Below, in pieces: positions 24,840 through 59,286 of a stretch of DNA of 64,000 nucleotides (positions within the stretch are counted from its first letter, which is position 1; each line of letters starts with the position of its first letter). The position numbers were made by a program, and so were the translations under genes. The notes under the pieces were generated by a model. The model was not told where the DNA came from and made no database searches. It saw only the letters and a program-made list of their open reading frames with translations. This DNA is from Tunturiibacter empetritectus (lineage in GTDB: Bacteria; Acidobacteriota; Terriglobia; Terriglobales; Acidobacteriaceae), in contig NZ_JACHDZ010000001.1 in NCBI RefSeq assembly GCF_014201375.1, positions 372,001 to 436,000 on the forward strand, written 5' to 3'.

Positions 24840-25379
24840 TCATCTTGCGGGGCGCTCTTTCAGGATGTAGGGAATTGCGAAGCGGCCGATTTGAAGGATT
24901 GAGTTGTTTGAGGGCGGCCAGATGCGAAAGGACTCTACACGTGATCGCGTTGCCAGACGATGAGCTGTGACGGTGCCTTGTTCTTTCCCCGTTACTGCTT
25001 CGTAGAACTTGACGACGAGGTCGTCTTCACCACGTTGCCATCCGATGACGTAGTTGCCGGCGGCGAGTGAGATGTCTCCGAAGATGATGGGGGACTGGAC
25101 TAAAAGGTAGTGAGAGTATTTTCCGTCGGCGGAGTACCCGGCTGTGATGAGAACAACCCCTGCGATGATCTTCCCGTGCGCGTCGATGATGCCGGAAGCG
25201 GTGCGCATCTCTGTTTCGATACGCTCCTTCTCGACTGGTGCGCGGGCGGGCAAGACAGCCTGTAGTTCTGAGGGAGTCGCGGCGCGCCAGGAAGACTTTG
25301 TTTGAGAGAAGACAAAAGAGGAAAAGCTGAGACATAGTAGGAGCGCTAAGAGAGAGGACTTCATCGGATGTTGTCTCAT
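24840..25379 (-). CDS. Small secreted protein of unknown function
   Basis: 179 residues with a signal peptide (internal Met MKSSLLALLLCLSFSSFVFS is probably the real start, six bases upstream of which nothing is distinctive). The core ASGIIDAHGKIIAGVVLITA then GYSADGKYSHYLLVQ, and a later YVIGWQRGED, resemble the protein at 39369-39962 (shared spacing of TAGYS, KY, YL and a G-Y-G beta-hairpin). It overlaps the response regulator by 4 bases (ATGA), so it is the third gene of the two-component operon and may be its output or an accessory sensor. Confidence 0.75.
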   Translation of the reverse strand: MRQHPMKSSLLALLLCLSFSSFVFSQTKSSWRAATPSELQAVLPARAPVEKERIETEMRTASGIIDAHGKIIAGVVLITAGYSADGKYSHYLLVQSPIIFGDISLAAGNYVIGWQRGEDDLVVKFYEAVTGKEQGTVTAHRLATRSRVESFRIWPPSNNSILQIGRFAIPYILKERPAR

Positions 25380-26002
25380 TTGAGATGTACGATACCTCGC
25401 TGGAGAGCTACGGTCGCGGCGTGAGTGCGATCGCTGACGCCGAGTTTGCCGAGCAGGCTGTTGATGTGTGACTTGACCGTGGCTTCGCTGATCTTCAAGT
25501 CGGAGGCGATCTCTTTGTTGGCGCGGCCGGCTACGATGCGCTCGAGGACCTTCAGCTCGCGATTGGTAAGAGCTTGCGTACTCATCCGTTCGGCGAGTTT
25601 CTCTGCGATGGCTGGGGAGATCAGCGTTCTTCCGCTGTGAACTGCCTGGATGGTTGAGAGGAGTTCGTCAACGGTCATTCCTTTGAGGAGGTAGGCCTTT
25701 GCGCCGGCCTGGAGGGAGCGGAAGATATCTTCGTCTCCGTCAAAAGTAGTGAGGACGATGAATCTTGCGGCGGAGTCTTCGGCACGAATCTTCAGAATGG
25801 CATCGACTCCGCCGAGATTGGGAAGCTGCAGATCCATCAGCGTGATGTCGGGTTTTAGGGTGCGATGGAGCTCGACTGCCTGGACTCCGTCGCTGGCTTC
25901 GCCAACGACTTCGATGTTGGGCATGATGCTGAGCAGAGCAACGAGGCCCTGCCGTACGACGTGATGGTCATCTACTACAAGGATTCGAATGCGTTCAGCC
26001 AT
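25376..26002 (-). CDS. NarL/FixJ-type response regulator
   Basis: 208 residues starting MAERIRILVVDDHH; a longer frame exists, but this ATG overlaps the kinase stop by 8 bases and gives a standard N-terminus. The receiver phospho-acceptor is D57 (ITLMDLQLPN) with T/K at the expected places. A LuxR-type helix-turn-helix (about 145-205; LTNRELKVLERIVAGRANKE and SEATVKSHINSLLGKLGV) binds DNA. The partner is the overlapping upstream histidine kinase. Confidence 0.95.
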   Translation of the reverse strand: MAERIRILVVDDHHVVRQGLVALLSIMPNIEVVGEASDGVQAVELHRTLKPDITLMDLQLPNLGGVDAILKIRAEDSAARFIVLTTFDGDEDIFRSLQAGAKAYLLKGMTVDELLSTIQAVHSGRTLISPAIAEKLAERMSTQALTNRELKVLERIVAGRANKEIASDLKISEATVKSHINSLLGKLGVSDRTHAATVALQRGIVHLK

Positions 26003-28991
26003 GGGTTGCTGTCTCTTTTCCTTCTGCGATGGGCGCCTCGAGGATGACGGTTGTGCCATTTTGCGGAGAGCTGTTTATCGTCAGTTGAGCATGAATTTGA
26101 GCTGCGCGTTCGTGCATGCCTTTTATGCCAAAGTGTCCGTTTGAGGGGAGATCCCCATTGAGGAGCGAAAATCCGCTGCCGTTGTCGGCGATGCTTAATG
26201 TTAATCGAGTTGAATTGTAGTTGAGCTCCGCGGATACCTGAGTCGCGTTTGCGTGGCGTGCGGCATTTGCCAGAGACTCCTGGGCGATGCGAAAGACCTC
26301 GTCTTCAAAAGACTGGGCGAGAGGCCGGTAGGTGCCGGAGATGTTGAGGCGGGTGTTGAGTTTCTTGTGGTTCCACTGTTCTGCAAGCTGTGTGAGCCGG
26401 GTGGGCAGGCTGTTCTGCGCCGTAATCGCGCGAAGATTCCAGATGCTGCGACGAGCGTCGGCAAGCCCCTCCCTGACGTAAGTTCTGGTGCGGTCAATCT
26501 GCTGGCTGGCCGCGGAGACTTGCGAGTGGGCCAGCAGTTGAGAGGTGAGTTCGAGTTGCACGGAGACACCGACGAAGCTTTGGGCCAGGGTGTCGTGAAT
26601 CTCGCGGGCCATGCGGTTTCTCTCAGCAAGAACTGCATGGAACTGCAATTCAAGTCGTCGAACGCGGAGGCGGTAGAGGAGGAGTGCGATGGTGGTGATT
26701 AGAAGAAGAAGCAGCAGGAGAAACCAGAGGGTGCGATAGAAGGGGGGACGCACCGAGAAGGCAATCTGTGCGCCGGTTTCGTTCCATACGCCATCGTTGT
26801 TTGCTGCCTGCACGCGAAAGCGATAGTGGCGCGGAGGGAGGTTGGTGTAGTAGGCGATACGGCGTGAACCGGCTTCGGTCCATTGCTTGTCGAATCCCTC
26901 GAGGATGTAGCGGTAGCGGATCTTAGCGGGAGCTACGTAACTGAGGCCGGCGTATTCGAACGCAAACCTGGTGTGGCCGGGGGTGATATTGTTCTTTGTT
27001 GCTTGCAGTGGAATGTTGACGCCGTCTACCGTGAATTGTTCGAGGACGACTGGAGGAGGAATGAGGTTCTCTATGAGGTGGCTGGGATCGGTGACGACGA
27101 CCCCTTTGCGGGTGGCGAACAGGAGTAGTCCTTCTGTGGTTTTCCACGTAGAGGGATGACCTGCGCCGAAGGCTTCCTCGGTTGGCATGCCATCGGCGCG
27201 GCCATACGAGACGGGATGAGGGTCGCAGGTTGACGACGAACCGCATTTGATAAGAGCTGAAGCTGAGACGCGCGTGATGCCTCGACCTGAAGTTAGCCAG
27301 AGGTCGCCTCGGTTGTCTTCGAGGATGGAGTCGATGGTCTGGGGTAGATCGTCTCGATGCAGCGACGTGAAGTCCGTGGTGGACATGACGCTGAGTCCCG
27401 CGGCTTTGGTTCCGATCCACAGTGTGCCGTGTGGGTCTTCTGCGAGAGAGGTGATGGTGTTGCCGGAGAGCCCATCTTTTGTGGTGAAGGTGGTGATGGT
27501 GCTGCCTCGAAGGCGCGAGAGTCCATTGAGGGTTCCGATCCAAAGATCATGTTCGGGGGAGGCATGAGAGCGGAGAAGAGCGCCTACAAGGTCACTTCCT
27601 AGACCGTCCGATTCGGTGAGAGTGACGAACTGATTGTTCTGCCAGTGCGCAAGGCCGCGGCGGGTGCCGATCCAGAGTGCACCGTCATCGTCGCTCAGGA
27701 GAGAACGAACGAGGTCGTCAGGTAGCCCGTCGGCAGAGGTGTAGGTTCGGACCTTCGCGCCGTTGATGTTGTTCAGGCCATCTGGGGTACCGACCCACAT
27801 GCTACCGTTTTCTCCTGGGGCTAAGGCCAGGATCGTTTCGCTGAGAAGGCCGGTGTGGGTGGAAAGATGCTGAACGTTTCCCGCTTGCCAGCGGTCGAGG
27901 CCGTCGCTGCTCGTGCCTGCCCATAGAGCGCCGTCCGATGCCTGTGTGATGGCTGTAACGGGGAGATCGGAGAGGGCAGGAATGGCGCGGAAGTTTTTGC
28001 GCCTCAGGATTTGGAGGCCGCTGGTCTCGGTTCCTACCCAGAGATTGCCCTCTTCATCCTGCATGAGGGAGAGGATGCTGTCGGAGCTGAAGGCCGGGAC
28101 GGGTTGTGGATGGCTGTTGATTTTGTCGAGCGTGAAGAGCCCTTTGCTGGTGCCTATCCATAGTTGCCCTTGCGAGTCGACGAGAGAAGACTGGATGCGT
28201 GCAGCTGGCAGGTCGCGGCCTATCGGAAGAGTGTGGTTCTGGCCATTTTGCAGGACTGTGATGCTGGTTCCGGTGCGCAACCAGAGGCTGCGGTCGGGGA
28301 AGAATCCGATGCCTGTAACGTCTTTTTGCGTAGGGGTAGAGCTGAGTGGTTGAGGAAGAACTCGGCCGCTTTGATAGTGAAAGATTCCGGAGTTTGATGC
28401 GATCCAGACGCTGCCGTCAGGGGCCATGGCGATTGCAGATGGGGCGGCGGAGGGCGGAAGGGGGAGGGTGGTGAAATGCTGGCCGTCAAAGCTACCGAGG
28501 CCATCTGTGGTGAGAATCAGGAGTGTGCCATCTTCTGCTGCGGCGAGGTTGGTGATGCGGCTAGTGGGCAATCCATTCGCAGCGGAGTAACGGCGAAACG
28601 CTCCCGCCGAGTATTGAAGGAGACCGTCGGAGGTTGCGATCCAGAGTGGGTTGGTGTGACTCTGGGCAAAGCAGCAGATGTCGTCGCTGGTGATTTCGTC
28701 AGTGGTTTCGTGATTGAAGACTTTGAAGTCGATGCCGTTGAAGCGGGCTACCCCGCCTTCGGTTGCGATCCAGATGTAACCGTCGGTGGATTGGAAGACC
28801 TGATGGACGCTGTTTTGCGGGAGGCCGTTTTCTGTGGACCAGGATTGATAGCCGAAGTTATCCAGAGACTGCGAGTGGGCGGTGAGAGAGAGAGCGGCGA
28901 TTCCGCATGAGATCCAGATGAGGGAAGAACACACGACGAGATGGAGGCGCGAGAGCAAGTTCATGCGGAGGGTCGATGAGTGCGAAGGCAT
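25995..28991 (-). CDS. Two-component propeller sensor histidine kinase
   Basis: 998 residues. A signal or anchor segment (internal ATG at 28964 is an alternative start) is followed by about 14 two-component-regulator propeller repeats (G-x-LWIGT type, residues 50-640) forming periplasmic beta-propellers. A Y_Y_Y domain follows (about 675-745), then one membrane helix (753-775) and HisKA_3 with phospho-acceptor His799 in RMAREIHDTLAQSF. The HATPase domain has N-box NAARHA and DNGSGF (936-941). This layout is known from Bacteroidetes hybrid sensors of polysaccharide fragments, but here the regulator is a separate overlapping gene. The ligand is likely an oligosaccharide. Confidence 0.94.
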   Translation of the reverse strand: MPSHSSTLRMNLLSRLHLVVCSSLIWISCGIAALSLTAHSQSLDNFGYQSWSTENGLPQNSVHQVFQSTDGYIWIATEGGVARFNGIDFKVFNHETTDEITSDDICCFAQSHTNPLWIATSDGLLQYSAGAFRRYSAANGLPTSRITNLAAAEDGTLLILTTDGLGSFDGQHFTTLPLPPSAAPSAIAMAPDGSVWIASNSGIFHYQSGRVLPQPLSSTPTQKDVTGIGFFPDRSLWLRTGTSITVLQNGQNHTLPIGRDLPAARIQSSLVDSQGQLWIGTSKGLFTLDKINSHPQPVPAFSSDSILSLMQDEEGNLWVGTETSGLQILRRKNFRAIPALSDLPVTAITQASDGALWAGTSSDGLDRWQAGNVQHLSTHTGLLSETILALAPGENGSMWVGTPDGLNNINGAKVRTYTSADGLPDDLVRSLLSDDDGALWIGTRRGLAHWQNNQFVTLTESDGLGSDLVGALLRSHASPEHDLWIGTLNGLSRLRGSTITTFTTKDGLSGNTITSLAEDPHGTLWIGTKAAGLSVMSTTDFTSLHRDDLPQTIDSILEDNRGDLWLTSGRGITRVSASALIKCGSSSTCDPHPVSYGRADGMPTEEAFGAGHPSTWKTTEGLLLFATRKGVVVTDPSHLIENLIPPPVVLEQFTVDGVNIPLQATKNNITPGHTRFAFEYAGLSYVAPAKIRYRYILEGFDKQWTEAGSRRIAYYTNLPPRHYRFRVQAANNDGVWNETGAQIAFSVRPPFYRTLWFLLLLLLLITTIALLLYRLRVRRLELQFHAVLAERNRMAREIHDTLAQSFVGVSVQLELTSQLLAHSQVSAASQQIDRTRTYVREGLADARRSIWNLRAITAQNSLPTRLTQLAEQWNHKKLNTRLNISGTYRPLAQSFEDEVFRIAQESLANAARHANATQVSAELNYNSTRLTLSIADNGSGFSLLNGDLPSNGHFGIKGMHERAAQIHAQLTINSSPQNGTTVILEAPIAEGKETATHG

Positions 28992-29049
28992 GATGGCCGG
29001 GTCGCTTCAGCTTGGATGATACGTCTTCCTGATCCAGGAGTGGTTCTTG

Positions 29050-29367
29050 TTACTTTCTTTTGTCGCGGCAGGAGTGAAGGTAGGCGACGAGGTCATCTAC
29101 TTCAGCTGTCTTCAGGATGTCGGCGAAAGATGGCATCTCGTGTCCACCCTGAACGATCTGCGTTCTGATCTGAATTTTGTTGAGCGTGCGTCCTACTCCG
29201 GAGAGATCGGGACCTTTTTCGCCGCCCACGTTGCGGATCGTGTGGCAGTGTTGACAGCCGTTATCTATAAACAATACTGCTCCGCGCTGCTTCGCGGACT
29301 CGGCGAATGCCGGGAGACAGGAAGCGGTTGCGAGGACAAAAAACAGTGCTGAGCGCAGCAAATTCAT
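29050..29367 (-). CDS. Small secreted mono-haem cytochrome c
   Basis: 105 residues with a signal peptide ending near AFAES. One haem site CQHCH (C38-H42) and a likely axial Met78 in GGHEMPSFADI define a class I cytochrome c. It would shuttle electrons in the periplasm. Its ATG overlaps the stop of the multihaem gene by 4 bases, making it the last gene of the 29-40 kb cluster and the probable electron-transfer partner of the five-haem protein. Confidence 0.92.
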   Translation of the reverse strand: MNLLRSALFFVLATASCLPAFAESAKQRGAVLFIDNGCQHCHTIRNVGGEKGPDLSGVGRTLNKIQIRTQIVQGGHEMPSFADILKTAEVDDLVAYLHSCRDKRK

Positions 29368-31583
29368 TGAGCAGATGTTCTGTTGTGGGCGGGCTCGGGG
29401 GCAAAATCTGTATGCGTGTGCCAGGGGACGGTCTCCGATGCGACTTCGTTGTGTTTGCGCAGAAACTCGAGCGCGTAGGTGCTGGCTGTGGGATCGTCTT
29501 TTTGATCTGCGAACATGGCGGCTTCGTGTGAGGCTTTTTCTTTCATGCCGAGACGGCGGTAGACGATGGAGAGAATGTAGTGGGCGGCGAGATCGTCGGG
29601 GTCGATGGATTGGAGCGTCTCATACTCCGCGCGAGCTTCGTCGTACTTGCGCTGCTGATAGAGGGAGAAGCCAAGCTCCCTGTGGGCGTCGCGTGAGTTT
29701 GGAAATTTTGCGATGACCTCGCGGAGATCGGCGATGGCGCTGTCGACCTGGCCCTGGTTCCGTTCGACTAATGCGAGGTAGTACAGCGCGCGCGAGTTGT
29801 GCGGGCTGAGAGCAAGAGCTTTGTTGAGGCTGACGCGGGAGGCTTCATAGCGCTCCCACTGGAAGTTGGCGACGGCGATGTTGGTGAAGGCGTCGGCGTA
29901 GTCGGGACGGAGGTGGGCGACCTGCTCGAAGGCGCGGACGCTCTCTGCGTACTGCTGCGCGTCCAGCAGGGCGATGCCGTAGTTGTTCCATCGCATCCAG
30001 AGTTTGTTGTCCTGAGGGTCGACCGCGGGGGGATTCTCGCCGAGGGTGAAGGTGCGTGTGCGCTCGGACATAGCAACGACCGGCATCTCGTAGTGCTTGC
30101 CCATTCCGAAGTCCATGAAGTGCTGATCGAATCGGCGATAGTTGACCCGTGCGGTGACGGTGAGGGGGCCGGTTGCGTCGGCGGGTACTTTGAATTGGTA
30201 GCGGACGAGCTGGGATCGGCCTGAAGCGATGGTGTTGTTGTAAGCCACAACGCGATTATCCCAGACCTGGTGGAGATCGTTGATGGTTCCTTTGGTGTTT
30301 ACGAGGCGATTGGTGAAGCTGTGTGCGCGGGGGTCGAGGTCGCCATTGGGCTGGATCGCGCCGGAGTGCATCAGGGTGCGACCGGAGGCGTCCTCGGCTT
30401 CGAATTCGACCCAGCTCTCATACATGTCGCGCTGCTCGGGTACGTGGCTGTGTGCGATGCCTTTGTTCTGAATGATGATCGTGGCGGTGAGGAGGTCGCC
30501 GGGCGAGACGGTGAAGCTATCGTTGCCGAGAGGCGCGATGATCTTGCCACTGTTTTTCTCGAGGCCGAAGATATCGACGTTGAAGACGCCTGCTTTGAGG
30601 AAGGCTACGGTCTTCTCCATCTGGGTGTCGTAGTTGTAGAACTTGGGAAGGACGGTGTTCGCGCCTAGCCATCGGTGAGAGGCCAGCTTGCCCTCTTTCG
30701 CGCCAGAGTCGGAGGTGGTGAGATCTTCGCGGGTCATGTGGCAGGTCTGGCAGGTGGAGACTTGATCCTTTACGTAGAAGGGAAGCGGCGACTGTTTTGC
30801 GAAGGAGGAGAGCTGCCATTCGTCGGAGAGGAAGATTGCGCGCTGCCATTTGTAGTCGTTCAGTTGTTTTGGAAGAGCGGCCTTGTGACACGCAGCGCAA
30901 AAGTTGCTGGTGCGATAGAAGTCTTTCATGACGGCTTTGGAGTGGCGGTCGAGATGGGCGAGGATCTCCTTGTCGGAGACCTCGCCGTAGATGGGTTGAC
31001 TGTTGTCGTCGAGCAGAGCTGCTGGCTGCGCGAGAACGTAGCTGCCTGTGCCGCGGGCGTCAACCTTCTGGATGGAGTGACAGACGGTGCAGGTGATTCC
31101 GTCTTCGTCGAACTTTCGATTTACTGGTGAGCCTTTGGTTAGTGCGCCTGAAACGAGGGCGATTGGATTGTGGCAGCCTTCGCAGTGGCGGGTATATTCA
31201 ATGCCCTTTTCCGCGGTGAGCAGGTTTGTGTTTCGGATGTACCAGGGGGCGCGAAAGGAGTTGGCATGAGCGGACTGACGCCACTCGGCGTGCGCCTCCT
31301 GATGGCAGTGACTGCAGTATTTGGCAGTGGGGAAGGCTTTGGGGTTGATGAACTGGCCGGTGTCGGTGGTTGCATTCGACGGGAGGAAGGGCTGATCGGT
31401 GCCGAATCGAAAGTTGTAATGCTGTTTGACTGATTCGGTGTAAACCTCACGTTGCGTGGGGGTAGTGAGGGCGTCAGAGGCGTGGGTCCCGTCGCCTTTC
31501 AAGGCCAGGAAAAAGGAGGCGATTGCGCCGCACAGCACGGTACAGAAAAAAATGCGAACGATCCGGCTGTAAGGCAATTTCAT
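29364..31583 (-). CDS. Five-haem cytochrome c with C-terminal TPR domain
   Basis: 739 residues from the ATG at 31583 (upstream in-frame ATGs at 31625 and 31652 are alternatives). An N-terminal export helix is followed by five CxxCH motifs at C90, C134, C165, C229 and C281 (cytochrome c554/c-prime-like layout). A beta-rich domain (about 350-530) follows, then four or five TPRs (about 565-715) with AVANFQWERYEASRVSLNKA. It is periplasmic, and the TPR tail suggests docking of a partner. In the same co-directional cluster are three CRTAC1 propellers. The redox substrate is unknown; nitrite/hydroxylamine-type enzymes have similar haem spacing but different length. Confidence 0.9.
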   Translation of the reverse strand: MKLPYSRIVRIFFCTVLCGAIASFFLALKGDGTHASDALTTPTQREVYTESVKQHYNFRFGTDQPFLPSNATTDTGQFINPKAFPTAKYCSHCHQEAHAEWRQSAHANSFRAPWYIRNTNLLTAEKGIEYTRHCEGCHNPIALVSGALTKGSPVNRKFDEDGITCTVCHSIQKVDARGTGSYVLAQPAALLDDNSQPIYGEVSDKEILAHLDRHSKAVMKDFYRTSNFCAACHKAALPKQLNDYKWQRAIFLSDEWQLSSFAKQSPLPFYVKDQVSTCQTCHMTREDLTTSDSGAKEGKLASHRWLGANTVLPKFYNYDTQMEKTVAFLKAGVFNVDIFGLEKNSGKIIAPLGNDSFTVSPGDLLTATIIIQNKGIAHSHVPEQRDMYESWVEFEAEDASGRTLMHSGAIQPNGDLDPRAHSFTNRLVNTKGTINDLHQVWDNRVVAYNNTIASGRSQLVRYQFKVPADATGPLTVTARVNYRRFDQHFMDFGMGKHYEMPVVAMSERTRTFTLGENPPAVDPQDNKLWMRWNNYGIALLDAQQYAESVRAFEQVAHLRPDYADAFTNIAVANFQWERYEASRVSLNKALALSPHNSRALYYLALVERNQGQVDSAIADLREVIAKFPNSRDAHRELGFSLYQQRKYDEARAEYETLQSIDPDDLAAHYILSIVYRRLGMKEKASHEAAMFADQKDDPTASTYALEFLRKHNEVASETVPWHTHTDFAPEPAHNRTSAQ

Positions 31584-31685
31584 AGCAATGGTGAATTCTA
31601 TTGAAGCTGTACGACTATTAGCCATCGTCCTACGGGTGGGTAGAGATCTCAATCGAAAGGTTGAGTGGCGGGGAGATGGAAGCCG

Positions 31686-33572
31686 TTAGAATCTACTTCC
31701 TTTCCCTTCTGTCAGGGTGACGATCTGGTCAACCTTGGTGACTGCGAACTTTTCTTTGGTTCCGCTTGGCCAGTGAACTTCAACGGAGTCGATGGTTGCG
31801 ATGTCGCCGAGGCCGAAGTGGACACGGGGGTCGTGGGTGGAGGCGAAGCTCCCGCCGGAGGTTACGTCTCCGCGTTGTTTCTGGCTTCCCGCGGTGAGAT
31901 AGACCGTGGAGCCGATGGCGTCTCGAGGGCTCTTTGGACCGCCTATCAGTTTCAGTTCGATCCAATGATGATTGTCTCGCGAGACGTTGCGAAGCAGGCC
32001 GGGATGGCCGTCCAGGGCGTTGATGACAACATCCAGCCTGCCGTCGTTGAAGAGGTCTCCGACGGCTATGCCGCGGCCAACGTAGAGGCTTGCGAGCGCG
32101 GTGCCTTCTACCGCAGGTTCAACATCAAACTTCTTGCCGTCGATGTTGTGAAAGAGGAGTGGGCGTTCGGCCCAGGTGGTTCCCCAGGATGTGCGATCGA
32201 CTTGAGGATACACGTGGCCGTTCGCGACCATCAGATCTTTCCAGCCATCGTTGTCGAAGTCGAGGAATGCGGTGCCCCAGCCGAGAAACGGAATTGTGGG
32301 TTCTGCGATGCCCATCTGGTAGCTGATGTCGGTGAAGTTGGCGTCGCCATCGTTGCGGTAGAGCGGGTTGTAGTCGTCGGAAAATGTGGTGTTGTAGATG
32401 TCTAGCAGGCCGTTGTTTCGGTAGTCGCCAGTGGCGATGCCCATGGAAGCTGTTTCGCGGCCATTCTCATTGAGCGCGTATCCGGAGGCGTAGCTTGCGT
32501 CCTCGAAGGTGCCGTCGCCCTTGTTGATGTAGAGGTAGTTCGGCGTTGAATCGTTCGCGACGAGAAGGTCGGGCTTGCCGTCGTTGTTGACATCGACGAA
32601 GACAGAGGCAAGACCATAGTAGCCGTTTTTGTCGGAGACACCGGCTTTCTCGCTGACGTCAGTAAAGGTGCCGTCGCCATTATTGTGAAAGAGGTGGTCT
32701 GACTCTCCTTTGAGACCTCGGGGACCGCACATTACCTTCTCGCCGCGAAACTGGCAGAAGCTGTAGGAGACTTCTTTGCCGCCAGATCCGGGCTGATTTG
32801 CGAGGTCATAGTGAACGTAGCCGGGAACGAAGAGATCGAGCCTGCCGTCGCCGTCGTAGTCGCCCCAGGTGGCGCCGGTGGACCAGTTGCCGAGAGTGAC
32901 ACCGGCTTTCTCGGCGACGTCGGTGAAGGTGCCGTCGTGGTTGTTGTGGTAGAGGCGGTTCTTGCCGAAGTTGGTGATGTAGATGTCGGGCCAGCCGTCA
33001 TTGTCGTAGTCGGCTATGGCGACGCCGATTCCCCAGCGATCATTGGTGACGTGTGCCTTCGTGGTGACGTCAGTAAAAGTGCCGTCGTGGTTGTTGTGGA
33101 AGAGAGCAGCGTGGGGTGTTGTTGCTTTGCCGCTGATGGCGTCGTAGGTGGAGCCGTTGACGAGATAGATATCGAGCCAGCCGTCGTTGTCGTAGTCGAT
33201 CAGTCCGACGCCAGAGCCGATTGTTTCGATGATGAATTTTTTTTCGGGCGTGCCCATGGTGTGGGTCCATGAGGCTAGTCCGGCTTTTGCGGCTATGTCC
33301 TGAAAGATGATGGGGCCACTCTTTACGAAGCCCCCGGCGGTGATGGGTCTCTTCTCTTCGTCGAGGACTGCGGGATGAGCGCCACCGGTGTTTGATCCTC
33401 CTGTTGCCGGCGCCTGGCCGCCCTCTTGAGGCTTGTCAGACTGTGTGTCGGTCGAATGGGAGTTTGGGGACGTGGACTGGGCGATTGATGCCGCTGCGCT
33501 CAAAAAAAGCGCGGTGTAGAGAGCAAAGGTGATGGAAGGTGAACCGTGGCGAGAACGATGGTGAACGGTCAC
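31686..33572 (-). CDS. CRTAC1/ASPIC-UnbV beta-propeller protein 3 of cluster
   Basis: 628 residues from a GTG start with AAGGA seven bases upstream; the frame is open further but would overlap the upstream gene. An export segment ends near AASIAQ, followed by a Pro/Ser/Gly linker. Seven or so FG-GAP/VCBS repeats follow (GVGLIDYDNDGWLDIYLVNG, GVAIADYDNDGWPDIYITN) with Ca-binding DxDxDG loops and DGTFTDVT turns. The C-terminal ASPIC/UnbV domain begins at about 545 (RDAIGSTVYLTAGSQKQRGD) and ends in VEVHWPSGTKEKF. These extracellular propellers are expanded in Acidobacteriota and Planctomycetota; their ligands are not known. Confidence 0.9.
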   Translation of the reverse strand: MTVHHRSRHGSPSITFALYTALFLSAAASIAQSTSPNSHSTDTQSDKPQEGGQAPATGGSNTGGAHPAVLDEEKRPITAGGFVKSGPIIFQDIAAKAGLASWTHTMGTPEKKFIIETIGSGVGLIDYDNDGWLDIYLVNGSTYDAISGKATTPHAALFHNNHDGTFTDVTTKAHVTNDRWGIGVAIADYDNDGWPDIYITNFGKNRLYHNNHDGTFTDVAEKAGVTLGNWSTGATWGDYDGDGRLDLFVPGYVHYDLANQPGSGGKEVSYSFCQFRGEKVMCGPRGLKGESDHLFHNNGDGTFTDVSEKAGVSDKNGYYGLASVFVDVNNDGKPDLLVANDSTPNYLYINKGDGTFEDASYASGYALNENGRETASMGIATGDYRNNGLLDIYNTTFSDDYNPLYRNDGDANFTDISYQMGIAEPTIPFLGWGTAFLDFDNDGWKDLMVANGHVYPQVDRTSWGTTWAERPLLFHNIDGKKFDVEPAVEGTALASLYVGRGIAVGDLFNDGRLDVVINALDGHPGLLRNVSRDNHHWIELKLIGGPKSPRDAIGSTVYLTAGSQKQRGDVTSGGSFASTHDPRVHFGLGDIATIDSVEVHWPSGTKEKFAVTKVDQIVTLTEGKGSRF

Positions 33573-33732
33573 GAGCGTGTCCTTATAGTCTTCATAGTCT
33601 TCCAGTTTCGAATTCGCGGGAGAAGCTAAGTCCCTCGTCTGTGCATCGGTTTGCCGGATGGTTGATGCAGCCTCATGTTTACCATAGACCCTGGAAGGGT
33701 GGTTGAGAGTGTTGTTTGCACTGTCGCTATTT

Positions 33733-35469
33733 TTAATTCGCCGATGGCACGCGGCCATCTCCCTCGGTCAGGTTAATGATGCGATCCAACGAAGCGGGAG
33801 GGTCAAAGATCTCCATTTGGCCGTTGGGCCAGCGAATTTGAATGCTCGTGAGGTGCGTCTCCGCGCCGAGGCCGAAGTGAAGACGGAGATCGCTTGACGA
33901 GTTGTAACTGGAGCCGCCACGAACCTCGTCTACCCAGAGGCGCTTTGCCGATTTCAAGGTGACGCGCGCGCCAATGGCATCGCGGTTGGAGGATGTACCT
34001 ATGAGATGAAGGCCGAGCCAGTGGTTCTGATTCTTCGCCAGGTTGACTAGAAGCATTGGGCGATCGCTCAGGTTGTTAATTACGGCTTCGAGGCGGCCGT
34101 CGTTGAAGAGGTCCGCGATTGCGAGGCCTCGGCTGGAGCGTGGGTCGACGAGCCCGGGGCCGGAGGTCTTGCTGATGTCGCGGAACTTTCCGTTGCCCTG
34201 GTTGTAGTAGAGGAAGCGAGGCTCGCGATAGGAGGAACCTAGTTTGGCGGAGTCGACCTCGGGATAGACGTGGCCGTTCGCAACGAGAAGGTCGGGCCAT
34301 CCATCGTTGTCGATATCGGCGAACATGGCGCCCCAGCCGAGGGCATCGGTGTTGATGCCAAGACCTGCGGCGAAGGTCATGTCGGTATAGGTGCCGTCGC
34401 CATTGTTGCGATAGAGGGTGGAGGTGTCGTCGGAGAAGTTGGTTTTGAAGAGGTCGAGTCTGCCGTCGCCGTCGTAGTCGGCCGCGGTGGATCCCATTCC
34501 GGCTTGTTCGCGGCCGTCTTCGTTGAAGGCTACGCCGGCGTCGGCGGCTGTGTCCTTGAAGGTCCCATCGTGGTTGTTTCGATAAAGGATGGCGGGTGTG
34601 GAGTCGCAGGCGACGTAGAGATCGGGCCAGCCATCGTCGTCGTAGTCGAGCGTGGTGATGGAGAAGCAGTAGTGGCCTTGTGTTCGCTCGAATCCACTGG
34701 ACTTGCTGACGTCTGCGAATTTTCCGCCGCCGAGGTTGTGGTAGAGGATGTTCGGTGCGCTCTCGAGGCCGCGTGGGCCGCACATGACGGGCACCCCCTT
34801 CCAGATGCATCCAGAGGTTTGGCCGGGTGTTGGAGTGCGAGCAAGGTCGAAGTGCACGTAGTTGGCGACGGCCAGGTCCAGCTTGCCGTCGCGATCGTAG
34901 TCGATGAAGGCGCAGCCGGTGCCCCACTCCTTGCCTGTACCGGCGACGCCTGCTTGCTCCGCAACCTCCTTGAAGGTTCCATTGCCCTGATTGTGAAAGA
35001 GGCGATTTTTGCCGTAGCCGGTGACGTAGATGTCGTCGAATCCGTCGTTGTCATAGTCTCCAACGCATGCTCCCTGGCCCCATCCAGTGGAGACCAGGCC
35101 TGCCTTTACGGTGACATCGGTGAAGGTTCCGTCGTGATTGTTGTGGAAGAGATGATTGGTGGGCTTTGCCTGGCCAGCAGCGGAGGTGGTGCCAGGCAGG
35201 TTGGTGCCGTTGACGAGAAAGATGTCGGGCCAGCCGTCGTTGTCGTAGTCGAGGATGGCGACGCCCGAGCCGGTGGCCTCGATGATGTAACGTTTGGATT
35301 CAACGCTCCCGTTGACATCGCGGACGGTGATCCCAGCCTTCAAGGCGACATCCACAAACCACGCCGGGGGAGGATGATCGGTCGATGGTGGATAGGGCTG
35401 CTGCTCTCCGAATGCGGTCACCGCAAAGAGGATGATGGCCGCGGTTTGAAGAAGGAGCCGAAGCTTCAT
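33733..35469 (-). CDS. CRTAC1/ASPIC-UnbV beta-propeller protein 2 of cluster
   Basis: 578 residues from MKLRLLLQTAAIILF, whose ATG overlaps the stop of the upstream paralogue by 4 bases. A cleavable signal peptide ends at about AFGE. The FG-GAP repeats have DYDNDGWPDIFLVNG-type calcium loops and GACVGDYDNDGFDDIYVTGY. A Cys pair (SGCIWKGVPVMCGPRG) occurs at the position conserved in all three cluster members. The ASPIC/UnbV domain (about 490-560) ends RWPNGQMEIF. It differs from its neighbours in lacking the long linker. Role as for the other members: extracellular binding or scaffold protein, otherwise unassigned. Confidence 0.92.
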   Translation of the reverse strand: MKLRLLLQTAAIILFAVTAFGEQQPYPPSTDHPPPAWFVDVALKAGITVRDVNGSVESKRYIIEATGSGVAILDYDNDGWPDIFLVNGTNLPGTTSAAGQAKPTNHLFHNNHDGTFTDVTVKAGLVSTGWGQGACVGDYDNDGFDDIYVTGYGKNRLFHNQGNGTFKEVAEQAGVAGTGKEWGTGCAFIDYDRDGKLDLAVANYVHFDLARTPTPGQTSGCIWKGVPVMCGPRGLESAPNILYHNLGGGKFADVSKSSGFERTQGHYCFSITTLDYDDDGWPDLYVACDSTPAILYRNNHDGTFKDTAADAGVAFNEDGREQAGMGSTAADYDGDGRLDLFKTNFSDDTSTLYRNNGDGTYTDMTFAAGLGINTDALGWGAMFADIDNDGWPDLLVANGHVYPEVDSAKLGSSYREPRFLYYNQGNGKFRDISKTSGPGLVDPRSSRGLAIADLFNDGRLEAVINNLSDRPMLLVNLAKNQNHWLGLHLIGTSSNRDAIGARVTLKSAKRLWVDEVRGGSSYNSSSDLRLHFGLGAETHLTSIQIRWPNGQMEIFDPPASLDRIINLTEGDGRVPSAN

Positions 35470-37355
35470 GGCTTTGAGGCCGTCGCTGGAGTGGTCAATG
35501 CTTTGGATTGCGATGAGGCTCCCATGGCAACTGTCTTCAGGATCTTTCCGCCCTCTTGAATGACATAAAGATGATTTGCCGCAAGGTCTGTGAGCTTGTC
35601 CGTTGTGCCGGAGGGCCACTTGATTTCGACTGAATCAGCTTTAGCGGAGTGATCGAGGCCGAAGTGGATTCGGAGATCGTTCTGTGAGTAGTAGCTGCCG
35701 CCGCTTCGCACTTCGTCGATTTGGATAAAAGGTTTGGCGCTGTCTGGTGTTGTGGTTGTGACGCTGATCTTTGCGCCGATGCCGGCGCGGTTCGACTTTG
35801 TGCCTACGGTGCGGATCTTGATCCAGTTGCGGCCAGTCGTCGATTCGCAGCGGAGCAGCTGAGGAAGGCTGTTGATGCAGTTGACGGCGACGTCCACTAT
35901 GCCGTCGTTGTCGTAGTCGCCGAAGGCGCAACCTCGGCCGGGGGCGGGTGTGGTGATGCCGGGGCCTCCTTGCACTGTCACCTCTTCGAACTGCCCGTTG
36001 CGCAGATTGCGGTAGAGGTATTTGTGTTCGGCGTAAGGCGCGTCGATGGCTGTTCCGTCGACCTCGGGATAGACGTGGCCGTTGCAGATGAAGATGTCGG
36101 GCCAGCCGTCGTTGTCCATGTCGAAGAAGCCGACGCCCCAACCGAGATAGCGAGTGTTGACGCCCAGTCCGGACATGTAGGTATGGTCATCGAAGTTTCC
36201 GTCACCGAGATTGACGTAGAGGGAGTCGGTGTCGCCTGCGAAGTTTGTCTTGACGATGTCGAAGCGACCGTCGCGATTGAAATCGCCAATAGAGACGCCC
36301 ATGCCGGCCTGTGGCTTGCCGTCAGGAGAGTATGCGATGCCGGCCTCGATGGCTACATCTTTAAAGGTTCCGTCTTTCTGATTCTGGTAGAAGGTGGCGG
36401 CGGTGGAGTCGTTGGCGACGTAGATGTCGGGCCAGCCGTCGCCATCGATGTCGGAGACAGCTACGGATAAGCCGTAGGTGCCGATGGTGTCCCACATGCC
36501 TGCTTTTTGTGAGACGTCGGTGAAGGTGCCGTCGCCGTTGTTGCGGTAGAGGATGTTCTTGCCGCCTTGTAGACCGGGAGGGCCGCAGGCTACCTGAATG
36601 CCTTTGTAGGCGCAGCCGGCTGCTTCGGGGAGGGGAGCTGTCTTGATGTCGAAGTCGATGTAGTTGGCGACAAAGAGGTCGAGATGGCCGTCGCGATCGT
36701 AATCGATAAAGGCACAGCCGGAGTTCCAGCGCGTCTTCGATTGGAGCAGGCCAGCCTTCTCGGTAACATCGGTGAAGGTGCCGTTGCCATTGTTGCGATA
36801 GAGAACATTTTGACCGTAGTAGCTGACGAAGAGGTCGTTCCAGCCGTCGTTGTTGTAGTCACCGACACAGCAGCTCTGTCCCCAGCCAGTTCGGCCGACC
36901 CCGGCTTTGAGGGTGACGTCAGTGAAGGTACCGTCGCGATTATTTTTGAAGAGGCGCGAGATGGGCTCCTGCCCCTTGGGAAAGCCTTCGAGCCGCGTGC
37001 CGTTGACCAGGAAGATATCGATCCAGTCATCATGATCGTAGTCGTAGAAGGCGACGCCGCAGCCGGTGGTTTCGAGGAGGTATCGATTTTTATGTTCGCC
37101 GCCGTAGATCGTCTTTGCGTTGAGTCCGGACTGGCGTGCGACGTCGATGAAGCTGATGCCGAGCGGAGTGCCTGCGACGGGAGAGGGAAGGGCTTTCGGG
37201 GCGGGACGGGGTACGGCGTCGTAGGTGGGGCGCGATCCCATCTGTTGGGCCGGCTGAGAGGTCTGCGGCGCGGCCAGAGCCAGTACATCTTCAAGCGAAA
37301 GAACCAGTGCGGTGGTCGAAAGCGAGGTAAGAAAGTTACGGCGAGACCAATTCAA
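35466..37355 (-). CDS. CRTAC1/ASPIC-UnbV beta-propeller protein 1 of cluster, Tat-exported
   Basis: 629 residues from a TTG start with AGGAG seven bases upstream; this places a Tat motif SRRNFLTS at residues 3-10. A linker is followed by FG-GAP repeats with GCGVAFYDYDHDDWIDIFLV-type loops, the Cys-containing insert AGCAYKGIQVACGPPGLQ, and an ASPIC/UnbV domain ending VEIKWPSGTTDKL. Tat export implies folding, perhaps with a cofactor or metal, before transport, unlike the Sec-type paralogue downstream. It is the closest intact relative of the remnant at 55549-56259 (GLGVNTRYLGWGVGFFDMDN versus GLGENTRLLGWGVGFFDMDN). Confidence 0.93.
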   Translation of the reverse strand: MNWSRRNFLTSLSTTALVLSLEDVLALAAPQTSQPAQQMGSRPTYDAVPRPAPKALPSPVAGTPLGISFIDVARQSGLNAKTIYGGEHKNRYLLETTGCGVAFYDYDHDDWIDIFLVNGTRLEGFPKGQEPISRLFKNNRDGTFTDVTLKAGVGRTGWGQSCCVGDYNNDGWNDLFVSYYGQNVLYRNNGNGTFTDVTEKAGLLQSKTRWNSGCAFIDYDRDGHLDLFVANYIDFDIKTAPLPEAAGCAYKGIQVACGPPGLQGGKNILYRNNGDGTFTDVSQKAGMWDTIGTYGLSVAVSDIDGDGWPDIYVANDSTAATFYQNQKDGTFKDVAIEAGIAYSPDGKPQAGMGVSIGDFNRDGRFDIVKTNFAGDTDSLYVNLGDGNFDDHTYMSGLGVNTRYLGWGVGFFDMDNDGWPDIFICNGHVYPEVDGTAIDAPYAEHKYLYRNLRNGQFEEVTVQGGPGITTPAPGRGCAFGDYDNDGIVDVAVNCINSLPQLLRCESTTGRNWIKIRTVGTKSNRAGIGAKISVTTTTPDSAKPFIQIDEVRSGGSYYSQNDLRIHFGLDHSAKADSVEIKWPSGTTDKLTDLAANHLYVIQEGGKILKTVAMGASSQSKALTTPATASKP

Positions 37356-37525
37356 ATGGACGCTCCTGAGGCAATGGCCCGGCACTGGTGTTCGAGGTTC
37401 TTTTTGCCGTGGTAATTGTAATCACAAAATCGGAAGGGATTGAAAGAGTCTTGAAATCGGTACACGGTATAGAGAAGCCTAGTCTGCAGAGAGAAAAACG
37501 GTTTGATTGCACTGTAGTACCGCCT

Positions 37526-39352
37526 CTATGGATGAGGAGAAGGATCCTCACCCGCGGAAGAAGTATTCGCGAGAAGCTTCTTGGCTTTCTGTCGTTCGAG
37601 GGCGGCATCGGCGCTTCGTCCCTGTTTGTCGAGAGCGTCGGCCAACGCGGAGTGTGCCTCGCTGTAGTTTGGGTCTGCTTCGACTGCGGTTTGCAATTGA
37701 AATATGGCATCGGCGGTCTTGCCTTGCTTGAGGAGGGTCTTGCCGCTATCGAGGGCAAAGTTGGCACGTTGGCGGCTGACGGCGATGCGGCTGAGGGATG
37801 CGGCCTTTTTGCGTTCGACTGCTGCGCCTTCGGAGTCTCCCTGCTGACTGAGGATGGCGGCAAGGCTGATGTGTGGACTGGGCTGGTTGGGCAGAAGATC
37901 GATGGCGCGTCGTAAGGCGGCTGCAGCTTTTTCGGGATCGTTGTTACTTTTGTAAACATTACCAAGGAGCGCCCAGGCTTCGCCGTTGCCGGGGCGTAGC
38001 GCGGTGGCGTTCTCCAGTTCGACCTGCGATTCTGCGAAACGTCCGAGCTGCATGTAGAGAACGCCGAGAGTGTAGGGCGGATCAGGCAGCTTGGGATCGA
38101 GTTGCTCGGCGCGCACGAACTCCGCGGCCGCTGCGGTTGGATCGTCTTTCAACTTCAACGCCAGTCCGAGATCGTAGTGGAGATGTGAGTTGTCGGGTTC
38201 GACCAGAAGACCTGCACGAAACTGCTCGACGGCGTGGTTGAGATCGCTTTGTTGAAGATAGGCGACGCCGAGATCCTGGCGCAGGGTGGGACTTTTCTCA
38301 TCCAGCGCGAGGGCTCGGAGGTAGAAGAGGATGGCTCCCTTTGCGTCGCCTGTCTGTACGAGCGCGAGTCCGAGGTTCGTGAGTACGGCGGAGTCCTGAG
38401 GTCGCGCCGCAACAACCTCTTGAAAGAGGGGTATAGCTTCGCGGGGGTTGTCGTTCGCTTGCAGGGTGAGGGCGAGTTCGTATTTGATGTCTGTCGATGC
38501 CGGATCAACGACCAGCGCATGTCGCAGTACGGTAAGTGCCTCGTCTTCCTGATCGTTCGCTCGTAGGGCACGACCAAGTTGGAGTGCATACTCGACATTT
38601 CCTTTGGACAGGTCATTCGCTTTGGTGAGTTCGCTGACTGCGTCTGCGAGGTTGCCTTGATTGAGAAAGATGGAGCCGAGGTGATAGTGCGCGGATGCCA
38701 GCGATGGCTCCAGCGAGATAGCACGCTGAAACTGAACTGTGGCATCACTGTAGGTCTGCTGTTGTGCGAGGATGGTGCCCAGACTATCGTGCAGAGCAGC
38801 GTTATCAGGCGAATTATTGAGAGCCGCCTCCAACTTTTTTTGAGCGGTGGCAGGTTGTCCCGTCGCTGCGAGGGCGGCGGCGTAGGCGATGGAGGCTTGC
38901 GGCGTGAGCGCCTGTACTGCATCGCTCTTCGTTTCGTCGAGGAGCTGAAACATCTGTACTGATCTCTGGTATTCGCGAAGCTGAGAGTAAGCGATCGCCA
39001 GGTTGAGTGTTGCATCCGAGTTCTGCGGATCGAGTTTGTGGGCCTGTTCGAGTTGATCCGCAGCGTATGCGAGGTCTCCCTCAGCAAGTAGGACTGTGCC
39101 AAAGGCACTATGGCCGGCGGCAACCTCAGGGGCTAATTTGACGACTTTGGCAAACTGAATGTGCGCGGAGAGCAGATCATTACGGAGATAGGCTGTGGAC
39201 CCGGCACGAAACGCTTGTTCAGCTTCCTTCACTCTGTCGGTCGGAGAGGTCTGTGAAGAAGCTGCCGGCGTGGAGTTCGTTTGTGCCTGCGCTAGCTGAG
39301 TAGTCGCGACGATGATACATAACAGAAACGAGCGTGTCTGGAAGTGTTGCAT
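37526..39352 (-). CDS. Secreted TPR-repeat protein
   Basis: 608 residues from the ATG at 39352 (MQHFQTRSFLLC..., signal peptide ending LAQAQ). About 14 TPRs of 34 residues run from about residue 50 to the end, for example AYLQQSDLNHAVEQFRAGLL. It lies 170 bases upstream of the first CRTAC1 gene and 16 bases downstream of a small secreted protein, all on the minus strand. It is likely a periplasmic scaffold for the propeller or cytochrome proteins. A degenerate homologue sits directly before a CRTAC1 remnant at 54.85-55.55 kb, showing that the TPR-CRTAC1 order is a recurrent pair. Confidence 0.92.
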   Translation of the reverse strand: MQHFQTRSFLLCIIVATTQLAQAQTNSTPAASSQTSPTDRVKEAEQAFRAGSTAYLRNDLLSAHIQFAKVVKLAPEVAAGHSAFGTVLLAEGDLAYAADQLEQAHKLDPQNSDATLNLAIAYSQLREYQRSVQMFQLLDETKSDAVQALTPQASIAYAAALAATGQPATAQKKLEAALNNSPDNAALHDSLGTILAQQQTYSDATVQFQRAISLEPSLASAHYHLGSIFLNQGNLADAVSELTKANDLSKGNVEYALQLGRALRANDQEDEALTVLRHALVVDPASTDIKYELALTLQANDNPREAIPLFQEVVAARPQDSAVLTNLGLALVQTGDAKGAILFYLRALALDEKSPTLRQDLGVAYLQQSDLNHAVEQFRAGLLVEPDNSHLHYDLGLALKLKDDPTAAAAEFVRAEQLDPKLPDPPYTLGVLYMQLGRFAESQVELENATALRPGNGEAWALLGNVYKSNNDPEKAAAALRRAIDLLPNQPSPHISLAAILSQQGDSEGAAVERKKAASLSRIAVSRQRANFALDSGKTLLKQGKTADAIFQLQTAVEADPNYSEAHSALADALDKQGRSADAALERQKAKKLLANTSSAGEDPSPHP

Positions 39353-39368
39353 CTGAGCCCGATTGTAA

Positions 39369-39962
39369 TCACGGATGGAGAGGAGTGGGGTTGCTTCTCT
39401 CAAGGGAAGTCTGCGCAAAGTCGACATAGTCGCGACCGACGTAAAGGCGATATCCGGTACCGCTGGGTGCGGGCAAGATCTGCAGAGGAGTCGGACGACG
39501 GAGGGTGGCGTCTTTGGCGGCAGGGGCGGAGAAGAGATCGTGGCCGCCGATGTCCATGACGACGAAGGTATTGCCGGCAACAAATCCGCAGCCATAGGCT
39601 CCTGGCTTGAGCGAATGCCCTGCGATATCGATGGATGCCTCTGTGATTAGATATGCCTGATATTTCTCCTGGACCGAACTGGAGTAGCCTGCGGTGTCTA
39701 CGAGGGCGACTAGAAGAAGCGCGTCCTTTGCGAATTGCACGCCGCCCGAGTTTCTGGATTGAATGGGCGCGCTCTGCCCACGGAAAAAGACTGTGGCGGG
39801 CAGGAGCTTCGCTGCTTCTGAGGCGGTAAGCATCTTGGTTCCAACCATGGCGGCTGAATCACTCTGGTAGCGACCGGCCGTTGGGGATGCGGCGTGCACA
39901 GAGGAGATCGCGATGGCCAGCAACGAGATGGAGAACAGGGATTTACAAACCATGTGCGGCAT
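39369..39962 (-). CDS. Small secreted protein, first gene of the CRTAC1/cytochrome cluster
   Basis: 197 residues from the ATG at 39962 (ATG 39953 is an alternative); the signal peptide ends VHAASP. Motifs include KLLPATVFFRGQSAPIQSRN, VDTAGYSSSVQEKYQAYLIT and KPGAYGCGFVAGN. The TAGYS...KY.AYL and G-Y-G-x-G hairpin resemble the secreted protein at 24840-25379. It is followed 16 bases later by the TPR gene. Its frame also stays open far upstream antisense to the glycosidase gene, but that extension is not coding. Function unknown. Confidence 0.8.
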   Translation of the reverse strand: MPHMVCKSLFSISLLAIAISSVHAASPTAGRYQSDSAAMVGTKMLTASEAAKLLPATVFFRGQSAPIQSRNSGGVQFAKDALLLVALVDTAGYSSSVQEKYQAYLITEASIDIAGHSLKPGAYGCGFVAGNTFVVMDIGGHDLFSAPAAKDATLRRPTPLQILPAPSGTGYRLYVGRDYVDFAQTSLERSNPTPLHP

Positions 39963-40040
39963 CTTATCAGTCGCATCGTACTTCGTCGTTAGAGAACACG
40001 GCAGCATGTAGACTGGTGGTCTTTTGAGGTGGAGGAGTCG

Positions 40041-46339: not shown

Positions 46340-46365
46340 TAGCGACCCCTTTTGCCGTGCTGGTG

Positions 46366-48216: not shown

Positions 48217-48353
48217 AACAAGCCTCCGGGAGTTCGCAACACTATAGCATTTGGGATGCGAGCCGCGACCGATGGTCATGTCATTTCGATGGCGGTTTGA
48301 GCGGGGAGAACCTTCGCGACGGGGTAAAACGCAGCGCGTTTCGTTGCGGCCGG

Positions 48354-49550
48354 CTAGGTGAGTTTGTGGTTTGTCGAGGGATGGGTTCCACAGGAGCGGC
48401 GAAGGACTGTCTTCGTCTGCACGAGGATGTCGCGCGTGGGCAGGTCGGGTTTTTCGAGTCGCTGCAGCATGGTTGCGATTGCCATGGCGCCGATGTCGGC
48501 ACAGTTCTGATGTTGTGTGGTGAGCGGCACGGGGAGGAGGCTCGCGTATTTCACGTCGTCGATTCCGACGATGCGGATCTCATCCGGGACACGTATTCCG
48601 CGAGCGGCGAGGCCCTGCATGATGCGGGCTGCGGTGATGTCGTTGGCGCAGACGATGGCGTCGGGGTGGCAGTCGTTGAGGATCGTCTGTAGAAATTTGG
48701 GATCTTCCGGATCACCGATACGAACGAGGTCCTGTTGCAGGTTGACCCCTCGCGCCAGGAGAGCCTCTCGATAGCCGGCGATTCGTCCGTGAACGGTGGA
48801 GGCAGAGAGACGCCTGGCGACGAAGGCGATGCGTCTGGCTCCGTGAAGGAGCAGATGCTGGGTGATGAGAAATCCTGCGCTGCGATTGTCGATACCGACG
48901 AGGTCGTACTTAGAACGCAGAGGATAGGGGGCGTAGCACCTGTCGAGCAGCACGACGGGAATGCCTGCGCGATCGAATGCAGAGGCAATGCGGCGGTTGA
49001 CGATGTCTTTTTCGGGAGTGAATTCGAGCGGCGCGAAGAAGACTCCGGAGACCTTTTGCGCGATGTACTTGTGGCAGAGCTGTTCGGCCTCCTTCTGCTG
49101 CTGGGCGAACTCGCCCATGGAGTGTCCCCACAGGAGGGAGTGGGGCCTTGAGAGAGGCGACTGCATCATGCCGTTGCAGATGGGCTCGAAGATCTCGGTT
49201 CGGCCGAGATCGGGAATTAGAAGCCCGAAGACGTGATCGGCCGATGCAATGGGCGCGAGAACGTGGGTGCCTGAGCCGGGACGTCGCGATACGAGGCCCT
49301 GCAACTGGAGTTCATGGACGGCTTTCGCCACGGTGATGCGTGAGGCGTTGTAGCGCTTTCCGAGTTCGGTTTCACTGGGCAGACGGTCTCCGCGACGAAG
49401 GGCTCCGGTCTTGATGCCAGAGTGAAGATCCTCGAAGATCTCGCGGTACTTCGGTGTGGCGGACGACTCTTTCCTGCTGCCGGAGCTGGTTTGCGAGTCG
49501 GCGGAGGCTGACGATTTGTTCTCGGTTCGCGAGATCCCGGTGTTCTTCAT
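48354..49550 (-). CDS. GntR-LacI hybrid transcriptional regulator
   Basis: 398 residues from MKNTGISRTENKSS. A low-complexity start is followed by a winged helix-turn-helix of the GntR type (about 34-98; LPSETELGKRYNASRITVAK and LVSRRPGSGTHVL). A LacI/periplasmic-binding-type effector domain follows (about 104-398; VFGLLIPDLGR, LLHGARRIAFVARRL, PDEIRIVGIDDVKYA). This AraR-type fusion usually represses sugar-use genes until the sugar binds. It lies between the two GH13 genes and the divergent TonB receptor, and both are likely targets. A longer start at 49646 has no ribosome site. Confidence 0.92.
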   Translation of the reverse strand: MKNTGISRTENKSSASADSQTSSGSRKESSATPKYREIFEDLHSGIKTGALRRGDRLPSETELGKRYNASRITVAKAVHELQLQGLVSRRPGSGTHVLAPIASADHVFGLLIPDLGRTEIFEPICNGMMQSPLSRPHSLLWGHSMGEFAQQQKEAEQLCHKYIAQKVSGVFFAPLEFTPEKDIVNRRIASAFDRAGIPVVLLDRCYAPYPLRSKYDLVGIDNRSAGFLITQHLLLHGARRIAFVARRLSASTVHGRIAGYREALLARGVNLQQDLVRIGDPEDPKFLQTILNDCHPDAIVCANDITAARIMQGLAARGIRVPDEIRIVGIDDVKYASLLPVPLTTQHQNCADIGAMAIATMLQRLEKPDLPTRDILVQTKTVLRRSCGTHPSTNHKLT

Positions 49551-54835: not shown

Positions 54836-54851
54836 AGACGAGGGTACGCTT

Positions 54852-59204: not shown

Positions 59205-59286
59205 CTAAGACGATCGAGTCATGAACAGCAGGACGGTTAGGCACTTTATACGCAGACTTGGCAGCGAGAAGAGAGGGAGCGAGTCG

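Follow-up and report, generated by a model that had tools for sequence, protein, structure and literature searches.

The 64,000-nucleotide stretch of the Tunturiibacter empetritectus genome analysed here (hereafter the window; C1:372001-436000 of a 4.83 Mb assembly, C1 being contig NZ_JACHDZ010000001.1) carries on its minus strand, between 29050 and 39962, a group of seven genes in which a CRTAC1-type propeller protein, cr3, is encoded beside a pentahaem cytochrome, mhc, and a mono-haem cytochrome c, cytc (Table 1). The pairing of a CRTAC1 gene with such a cytochrome recurs across the phylum Acidobacteriota, in both gene orders, and we lean toward reading the cr3-mhc-cytc core as a redox complex of the cell envelope. 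An earlier note on this DNA had described the seven open reading frames (ORFs), two four-base overlaps and three different export leaders, and each of these observations held: the ORFs are all present, with the domains ascribed to them matched in Pfam for every protein except sm, which had no match; both overlaps are ATGA, at 29364-29367 (cytc/mhc) and 35466-35469 (cr1/cr2); and the leaders, judged by eye, are a twin-arginine (Tat)-like one with SRRNFL in cr1, a Sec-like one in cr2 and a hydrophobic stretch after the GTG start in cr3. The run is longer than those seven genes, as hk, rr and d1 continue it on the minus strand, and hk and rr probably control the cluster. Since sm and d1 are homologous (28% identity over 136 aa, E 5e-6), related small secreted proteins flank the ten-gene run at both ends.

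Table 1. Genes of the minus-strand run (positions are those of the window; TPR, tetratricopeptide repeat).
Gene	Product	Position	Strand	Evidence and remarks
sm	Small secreted protein, 197 aa	39369..39962	-	No Pfam match; homologue of d1 (24840-25379)
TPR	TPR protein, signal-like leader	37526..39352	-	Pfam TPR; likely start ATG 39352
cr1	CRTAC1-type propeller, Tat-like leader SRRNFL	35466..37355	-	Pfam FG-GAP and UnbV_ASPIC; start TTG 37355 or GTG 37385
cr2	CRTAC1-type propeller, Sec-like leader	33733..35469	-	Pfam FG-GAP and UnbV_ASPIC; ATGA overlap with cr1
cr3	CRTAC1-type propeller	31686..33572	-	Pfam FG-GAP and UnbV_ASPIC; likely GTG start; usual cytochrome neighbour in close relatives
mhc	Five CxxCH; c552/ExtKL-type pentahaem domain, then beta domain, then TPR; one N-terminal hydrophobic segment	29364..31583	-	Pfam Cytochrome_C554 and TPR
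cytc	Secreted mono-haem cytochrome c	29050..29367	-	Pfam cytochrome c; ATGA overlap with mhc
hk	Reg_prop/Y_Y_Y sensor histidine kinase (HisKA_3)	25995..28964	-	Pfam; same-strand continuation of the run
rr	NarL-type response regulator	25376..26059	-	Domain search
d1	Small secreted protein, sm homologue	24840..25379	-	Four-base overlap with rr

The haem motifs of mhc are CSHCH, CEGCH, CTVCH, CAACH and CQTCH, and a model of the mature protein (predicted local distance difference test score (pLDDT) 91.4, predicted template modelling score (pTM) 0.90) has strands at 298-481. The best match of mhc in the Protein Data Bank (PDB) by Foldseek was cytochrome c552 of Thermochromatium tepidum (5ze8; E 4.5e-11, TMt 0.66, 17% identity, 468 columns), and a profile built on the haem and beta regions matched 5ze8 (5.7e-9), c554 (7.9e-5), MccSep (4.5e-4) and MccA (1.4e-3). 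The assignment of the pentahaem fold rests on the Foldseek and profile searches; the VIA-align 2 listing for mhc was filled by TPR chains. Given five motifs in one domain and a c552 fold with a beta domain after the haems, mhc matches, in its sequence and model, the pentahaem cytochrome (PHC) family of c552 and ExtKL. The ExtKL model was matched by 21 of 38 members, and the ExtKL equivalog NF040886 scored 21.9 bits with the window fragment and 21.2 with the whole protein, below its cut-off of 250 bits. We dropped the NrfA nitrite reductase as a candidate, all five motifs being CxxCH and NrfA being absent from the families listed in the model searches; the active-site haem of NrfA is bound by CxxCK, and CxxCH variants of NrfA exist. 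NrfB models were matched weakly by 2 of the 38 members.

The haem ligands were compared in an alignment of 68 sequences, picked from 99 and the window. All five CxxCH motifs were invariant in it, but seven distant relatives with four CxxCH had been omitted, so that the selection itself contributes to the constancy of the first haem. Nine histidines were invariant in 68/68, namely the five proximal ones of the CxxCH motifs and four others, and with four further histidines for five haems one haem may lack a second His ligand and thus be open. In the available part of the source on the family, cable-bacteria PHC members are listed among cytochromes with pentacoordinated haems (PMC11976967). The first haem motif of four long forms (L137 and L162-L164) aligns as CxxxxCH, and CxxCH counts of four therefore understate the number of haems.

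Conservation of the neighbourhood was followed in two samples. The close set holds 80 loci of mhc relatives (L001-L080), kept from 120, of which 52 have flanks of more than 7.5 kb in each direction and the other 28 have shorter ones, so that absence of a gene there may reflect truncation. The phylum set holds 59 regions, hand-picked rather than random as the best matches among those listed, 58 of them from other genomes and one a second copy in the window's own genome; five genomes contributed two regions each, and four regions (L112, L114, L119 and L120) carry a cytochrome that already figures among the 80. The 39 most divergent regions (≤38% identity among the listed matches) contain no such repeat. 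Synteny was counted by tblastn or by hidden Markov models (HMMs) on stop-to-stop ORFs, as greedy longest-ORF calling seemed to take antisense ORFs in GC-rich loci. Adjacency was defined as a CRTAC1 gene ≤400 bp from mhc, with distances that run short because they were taken from stop-to-stop frames.

By this definition a CRTAC1 gene adjoined mhc in 34/80 close loci (33 on the same strand, 31 upstream) and in 38/59 phylum regions (37 on the same strand, 29 downstream). Among the 39 most divergent regions 28 had an adjacent CRTAC1 gene, always downstream, an order opposite to that of the window. CRTAC1 counts and genome sizes would lead one to expect about 0.28 adjacencies in 59 regions, an approximate figure given that at most 19 matches to PF07593 were scored per genome, and the adjacency is therefore not due to chance. 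The pairing was found in 14 of the 21 sampled families; 12 of the 38 paired regions came from one family (12/12) and nine from the window's own (9/16). A second pair in the window's own genome, at C1:746,991-751,277, has the window order. The genome-wide co-occurrence that the earlier note had proposed to look for was also found: PF07593, matched in 142 of the 297 genomes of the phylum, was present in 84/87 genomes with mhc (E ≤ 1e-30) versus 58/210 genomes without it. Neighbours confined to this strain, which the earlier note had named as evidence against its proposal, are not what the core of cr3, mhc and cytc shows; cr1, cr2, TPR and sm come close to that pattern, as they accompany the core in 3/80 loci, all of them from Edaphobacter lichenicola.

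The propeller partners are of more than one kind. A tree of 111 CRTAC1 sequences was built after removal of hits below 450 bits, frames outside 450-1000 aa and loci L081-L110; one third of the upstream cases from L001-L080 were kept, and 60 of the 111 sequences are of neither partner type by the 400 bp rule. Twenty-five of the 34 downstream partners fell in one clade (28 sequences, support 1.0), while 16 of the 17 upstream partners, including cr3, fell in another (35 sequences, support 0.998) that additionally contains five downstream partners and 14 other sequences; four downstream partners and one upstream partner lay outside both. Taken with the gene orders, these positions show that CRTAC1 proteins of at least two lineages pair with mhc, and that either order occurs. 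All three window propellers scored above the Pfam cut-offs for FG-GAP and UnbV_ASPIC, and the model of cr3 (pLDDT 94.8) has the fold of CRTAC1 (9etn). The window proteins differ from that murine protein in being bacterial, in lying beside multihaem cytochromes and in occurring as three copies with three different leaders. Their DxDxDG motifs alone suggest calcium binding, as the earlier note had supposed. TPRs were fused to an FG-GAP propeller in seven of the eight long propeller frames scanned (eight of ten long frames), and in these seven fusions UnbV_ASPIC passed its cut-off in four, fell below it in one and had no match at E 1e-5 in two. CRTAC1 proteins also have two conserved cysteines within a loop that ends in CGP-x-GL, together with a near-invariant NGH motif, as seen in cr1-cr3 and in 66 of 83 paired relatives, where the 83 rows may include partial duplicates, L081-L110 having been retained.

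Another setting of mhc bears on whether the pair works together at all. In the close set, the sample searched for it, mhc is divergent from a complex I operon (nuoA first) in 22/80 loci, and in one of these (L044) nuoA, nuoB and nuoD were confirmed by Pfam, a context by which respiration is also indicated. Twenty-one of the 22 have no CRTAC1 gene within 5 kb, as might be expected if mhc were an all-purpose periplasmic shuttle and CRTAC1 a structural or adhesive surface protein that neighbours it for regulatory reasons only; the fold shared with murine CRTAC1, which resembles lectins and integrin propellers, would suit such a role. However, the adjacency holds across a reversed gene order and different CRTAC1 clades, at 38/59 against the 0.28 expected, and TPRs are fused to both partners, so that we consider this explanation improbable.

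How electrons might reach or leave the pentahaem part is suggested by the architecture of the relatives. Four or five hydrophobic helices, assigned by a hydropathy window, precede the pentahaem part in 33/39 of the most divergent relatives, and the remaining 26 phylum regions have at most one such helix. In 30/30 aligned sequences (L162-L164 omitted) helices 2 and 4 each hold one invariant histidine, a second histidine in each of these helices is present in 24/30, and with L162-L164 included one helix-4 histidine is invariant in 33/33. The added domain looks like a haem-b domain. A mono-haem cytochrome gene follows mhc in 53/80 close loci by HMM, or in 55/80 if any small CxxCH frame directly downstream is counted, versus 0/39 of the most divergent regions for such a frame. 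With the added domain in 33/39 and the small gene distributed in this way, the simplest reading is that one electron partner, membrane domain or mono-haem cytochrome, replaced the other.

The direction of flow is close to balanced, with a slight preference for electrons that enter from a substrate and leave into the respiratory chain over the opposite course. Quinol-linked reductases commonly join a haem-b type membrane domain to a multihaem c part, and quinol or cytochrome c could feed the pentahaem chain, which would then reduce an acceptor outside the cell or in the periplasm, for instance an oxyanion, a metal oxide or a humic compound. A mono-haem cytochrome c is more usual on the path to an oxidase, however, so that its gene after the short form in those 55/80 loci speaks against reduction of such an acceptor, as does the lack of any recognised outer-membrane barrel gene in the run 24840-39962. 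A porin-cytochrome conduit of the MtrCAB type was dropped for the latter reason; the Oar-like barrel at 50030-53656 is about 10 kb off on the opposite strand. Within the family, the accessible portion of one report describes a Geobacter cluster in which ExtKL is accompanied by haem b and Rieske proteins, and gives ExtKL a proposed part in selenite reduction and an abundance linked to Fe(III) (PMC5877670), and c552 is termed low-potential in an excerpt of another (PMC11976967), both of which favor the reductive direction. Weighing these points, we regard reverse flow as rather unlikely.

The earlier note had joined all seven genes in a single redox complex, perhaps oxidising a plant-derived or polymeric substrate. 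Tight minus-strand packing and export leaders are what a dedicated machine of that kind would be expected to show, and glycoside hydrolase genes do adjoin the cluster: an MGH1-like hydrolase lies at 40029-42557 (+), two alpha-amylases with a GntR/LacI-type regulator at 44540-49646 (-), the Oar-like outer-membrane barrel on the plus strand beyond them, and a GH36 melibiase at 59221-61590 (+). Homologues of the regulator occur in 17/80 close loci, in 16 of them within 5 kb of mhc, and those of the amylases in 5/80, all within 5 kb. For the barrel the corresponding counts are 15 and nine, for the MGH1-like hydrolase seven and one, and the GH36 homologue was found at one locus. Any of the window's four hydrolases was present at 10/80 loci, and this, together with the seven genes standing together in 3/80, weighs against a single machine. 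A common transcript found no support either, because a scan for promoters and terminators gave counts near those of shuffled sequence (four promoter-like sites versus 4.3 in shuffles, 18 terminator-like sites versus 16.6), and neither a transcript boundary nor a common transcript can be argued from it. We therefore consider one seven-gene machine for plant or polymer oxidation very improbable, the support for a plant or polymer substrate being thin, although there are hints of a sugar-linked one. The mhc of the window shares 95% identity with the one in E. lichenicola M8UP30. Here cr1, cr2, TPR and sm are a lineage-specific addition, plausibly of further substrate-binding parts. In 22/80 loci hk, rr and d1 are all found no more than 10 kb from mhc, in either orientation.

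Two further arrangements of these genes were seen. Within the window, at 54308-56253 (+), there is an apparent decayed second copy of the TPR-cr1 module, spread over more than one frame and without the N-terminal part of cr1. Its TPR pieces occupy 54308-55507, and those resembling cr1 occupy 55542-55853 (69% identity) and 55852-56253 (62%). In E. lichenicola M8UP30 the second locus with mhc (L030:4146-12250) has a row of a seven-CxxCH protein (weak TPR), a further CRTAC1 protein, cr3 and mhc.

What survives of the earlier proposal of a periplasmic or surface redox complex is accordingly the core, for which conserved adjacency, co-occurrence and the relatives' predicted haem-b domain fused to the pentahaem part speak in favor; the seven genes are not conserved as a unit, cr1, cr2, TPR and sm having been seen with the core in E. 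lichenicola loci. We judge it somewhat better than an even chance that cr3, mhc and cytc form a cell-envelope redox complex of a CRTAC1 protein and a pentahaem cytochrome that passes electrons from a substrate to the respiratory chain. In such a complex the TPR tail of mhc would likely serve as the dock for the CRTAC1 propeller, which would present or bind the substrate, and the one haem that has no invariant second histidine might be the reaction site. Electrons would then move from the substrate to mhc, on to cytc and into the respiratory chain. In the divergent relatives the added domain would bind haem b and exchange electrons with quinone, a role that cytc would take over in the short form.

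Several observations pull the other way. There is no adjacent CRTAC1 gene in 46/80 close loci and 21/59 phylum regions, 7/21 families show no adjacency, and PF07593 went unmatched in three mhc-bearing genomes. Of the loci beside complex I, 1/22 has a CRTAC1 gene at ≤5 kb from mhc, versus 46/58 of the others, so the two are not obligatory neighbours, and the Fisher value for the co-occurrence of mhc and PF07593 (4e-31) overstates independence since the genomes are related. In mhc, His 385 is present in 64/68 sequences and could fill the fifth position, which would leave no open haem. The CRTAC1 proteins of the window have no haem motif, and no catalytic site was recognised in them. As to the added domain, its Pfam matches are weak (DUF4405 in 2/33, b561 in 1/33), a PDB profile search with it returned nothing below E 0.58, and 10 of 43 examined regions from outside the window's family are short forms too. 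The GntR/LacI-type regulator near mhc, finally, hints at a sugar context that a complex of this kind leaves unexplained.

Comparison with described systems separates what is familiar here from what is not. The PHC family, as delimited in the part of PMC11976967 that was available, comprises ExtKL, Gsu2801 and cable-bacteria proteins, with an immunoglobulin-like domain and structural homology to c552 (PMC11976967), and ExtKL appears in the accessible text of a second source as a pentahaem selenoprotein and candidate for selenite reduction (PMC5877670). With T. tepidum c552 (5ze8), Geobacter ExtKL and Gsu2801, MccSep and the cable-bacteria sPHC and lPHC, mhc shares a domain of five haems with a beta domain after it; it differs from them in its C-terminal TPR tail, its single gene and its CRTAC1 neighbour, and most of its divergent relatives differ also in the N-terminal, His-bearing membrane domain. 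A CRTAC1 gene beside multihaem proteins is likewise found in one account among the matches listed, the consulted sections of which place one at the flank of hydrazine-synthase (HZS) homologues and note a clade I beta-gamma homologue that carries cytochrome c554 domains (PMC12758564). The haem proteins there are HZS alpha and beta-gamma, and those sections describe no PHC-TPR cytochrome (PMC12758564). In Solibacter, a group of ASPIC/UnbV paralogues has been reported, as far as the available excerpt goes (PMC3174227). Among the matches listed from the open-licence literature, we found no description of the CRTAC1-mhc pair.

Acidobacteriota are abundant in many soils, and a large part of their respiratory chemistry has yet to be assigned. 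It is possible, at a little less than even chances, that the pair represents an unrecognised respiratory enzyme of this phylum, built on a c552-type pentahaem cytochrome that would be linked to haem b and quinone in the divergent families and to cytochrome c in the Acidobacteriaceae, with a TPR-docked CRTAC1 protein that would recognise the substrate. Found again with its order reversed and with propellers of different clades, the pair offers a direct handle on bacterial CRTAC1 proteins and on TPR-bearing pentahaem cytochromes, and the exchange of a membrane domain for a separate cytochrome c gene yields a testable prediction of the electron pool that each form would use. If true, this reading would give a first redox role to bacterial CRTAC1 proteins, which are matched in nearly half of the genomes of the phylum (142/297).

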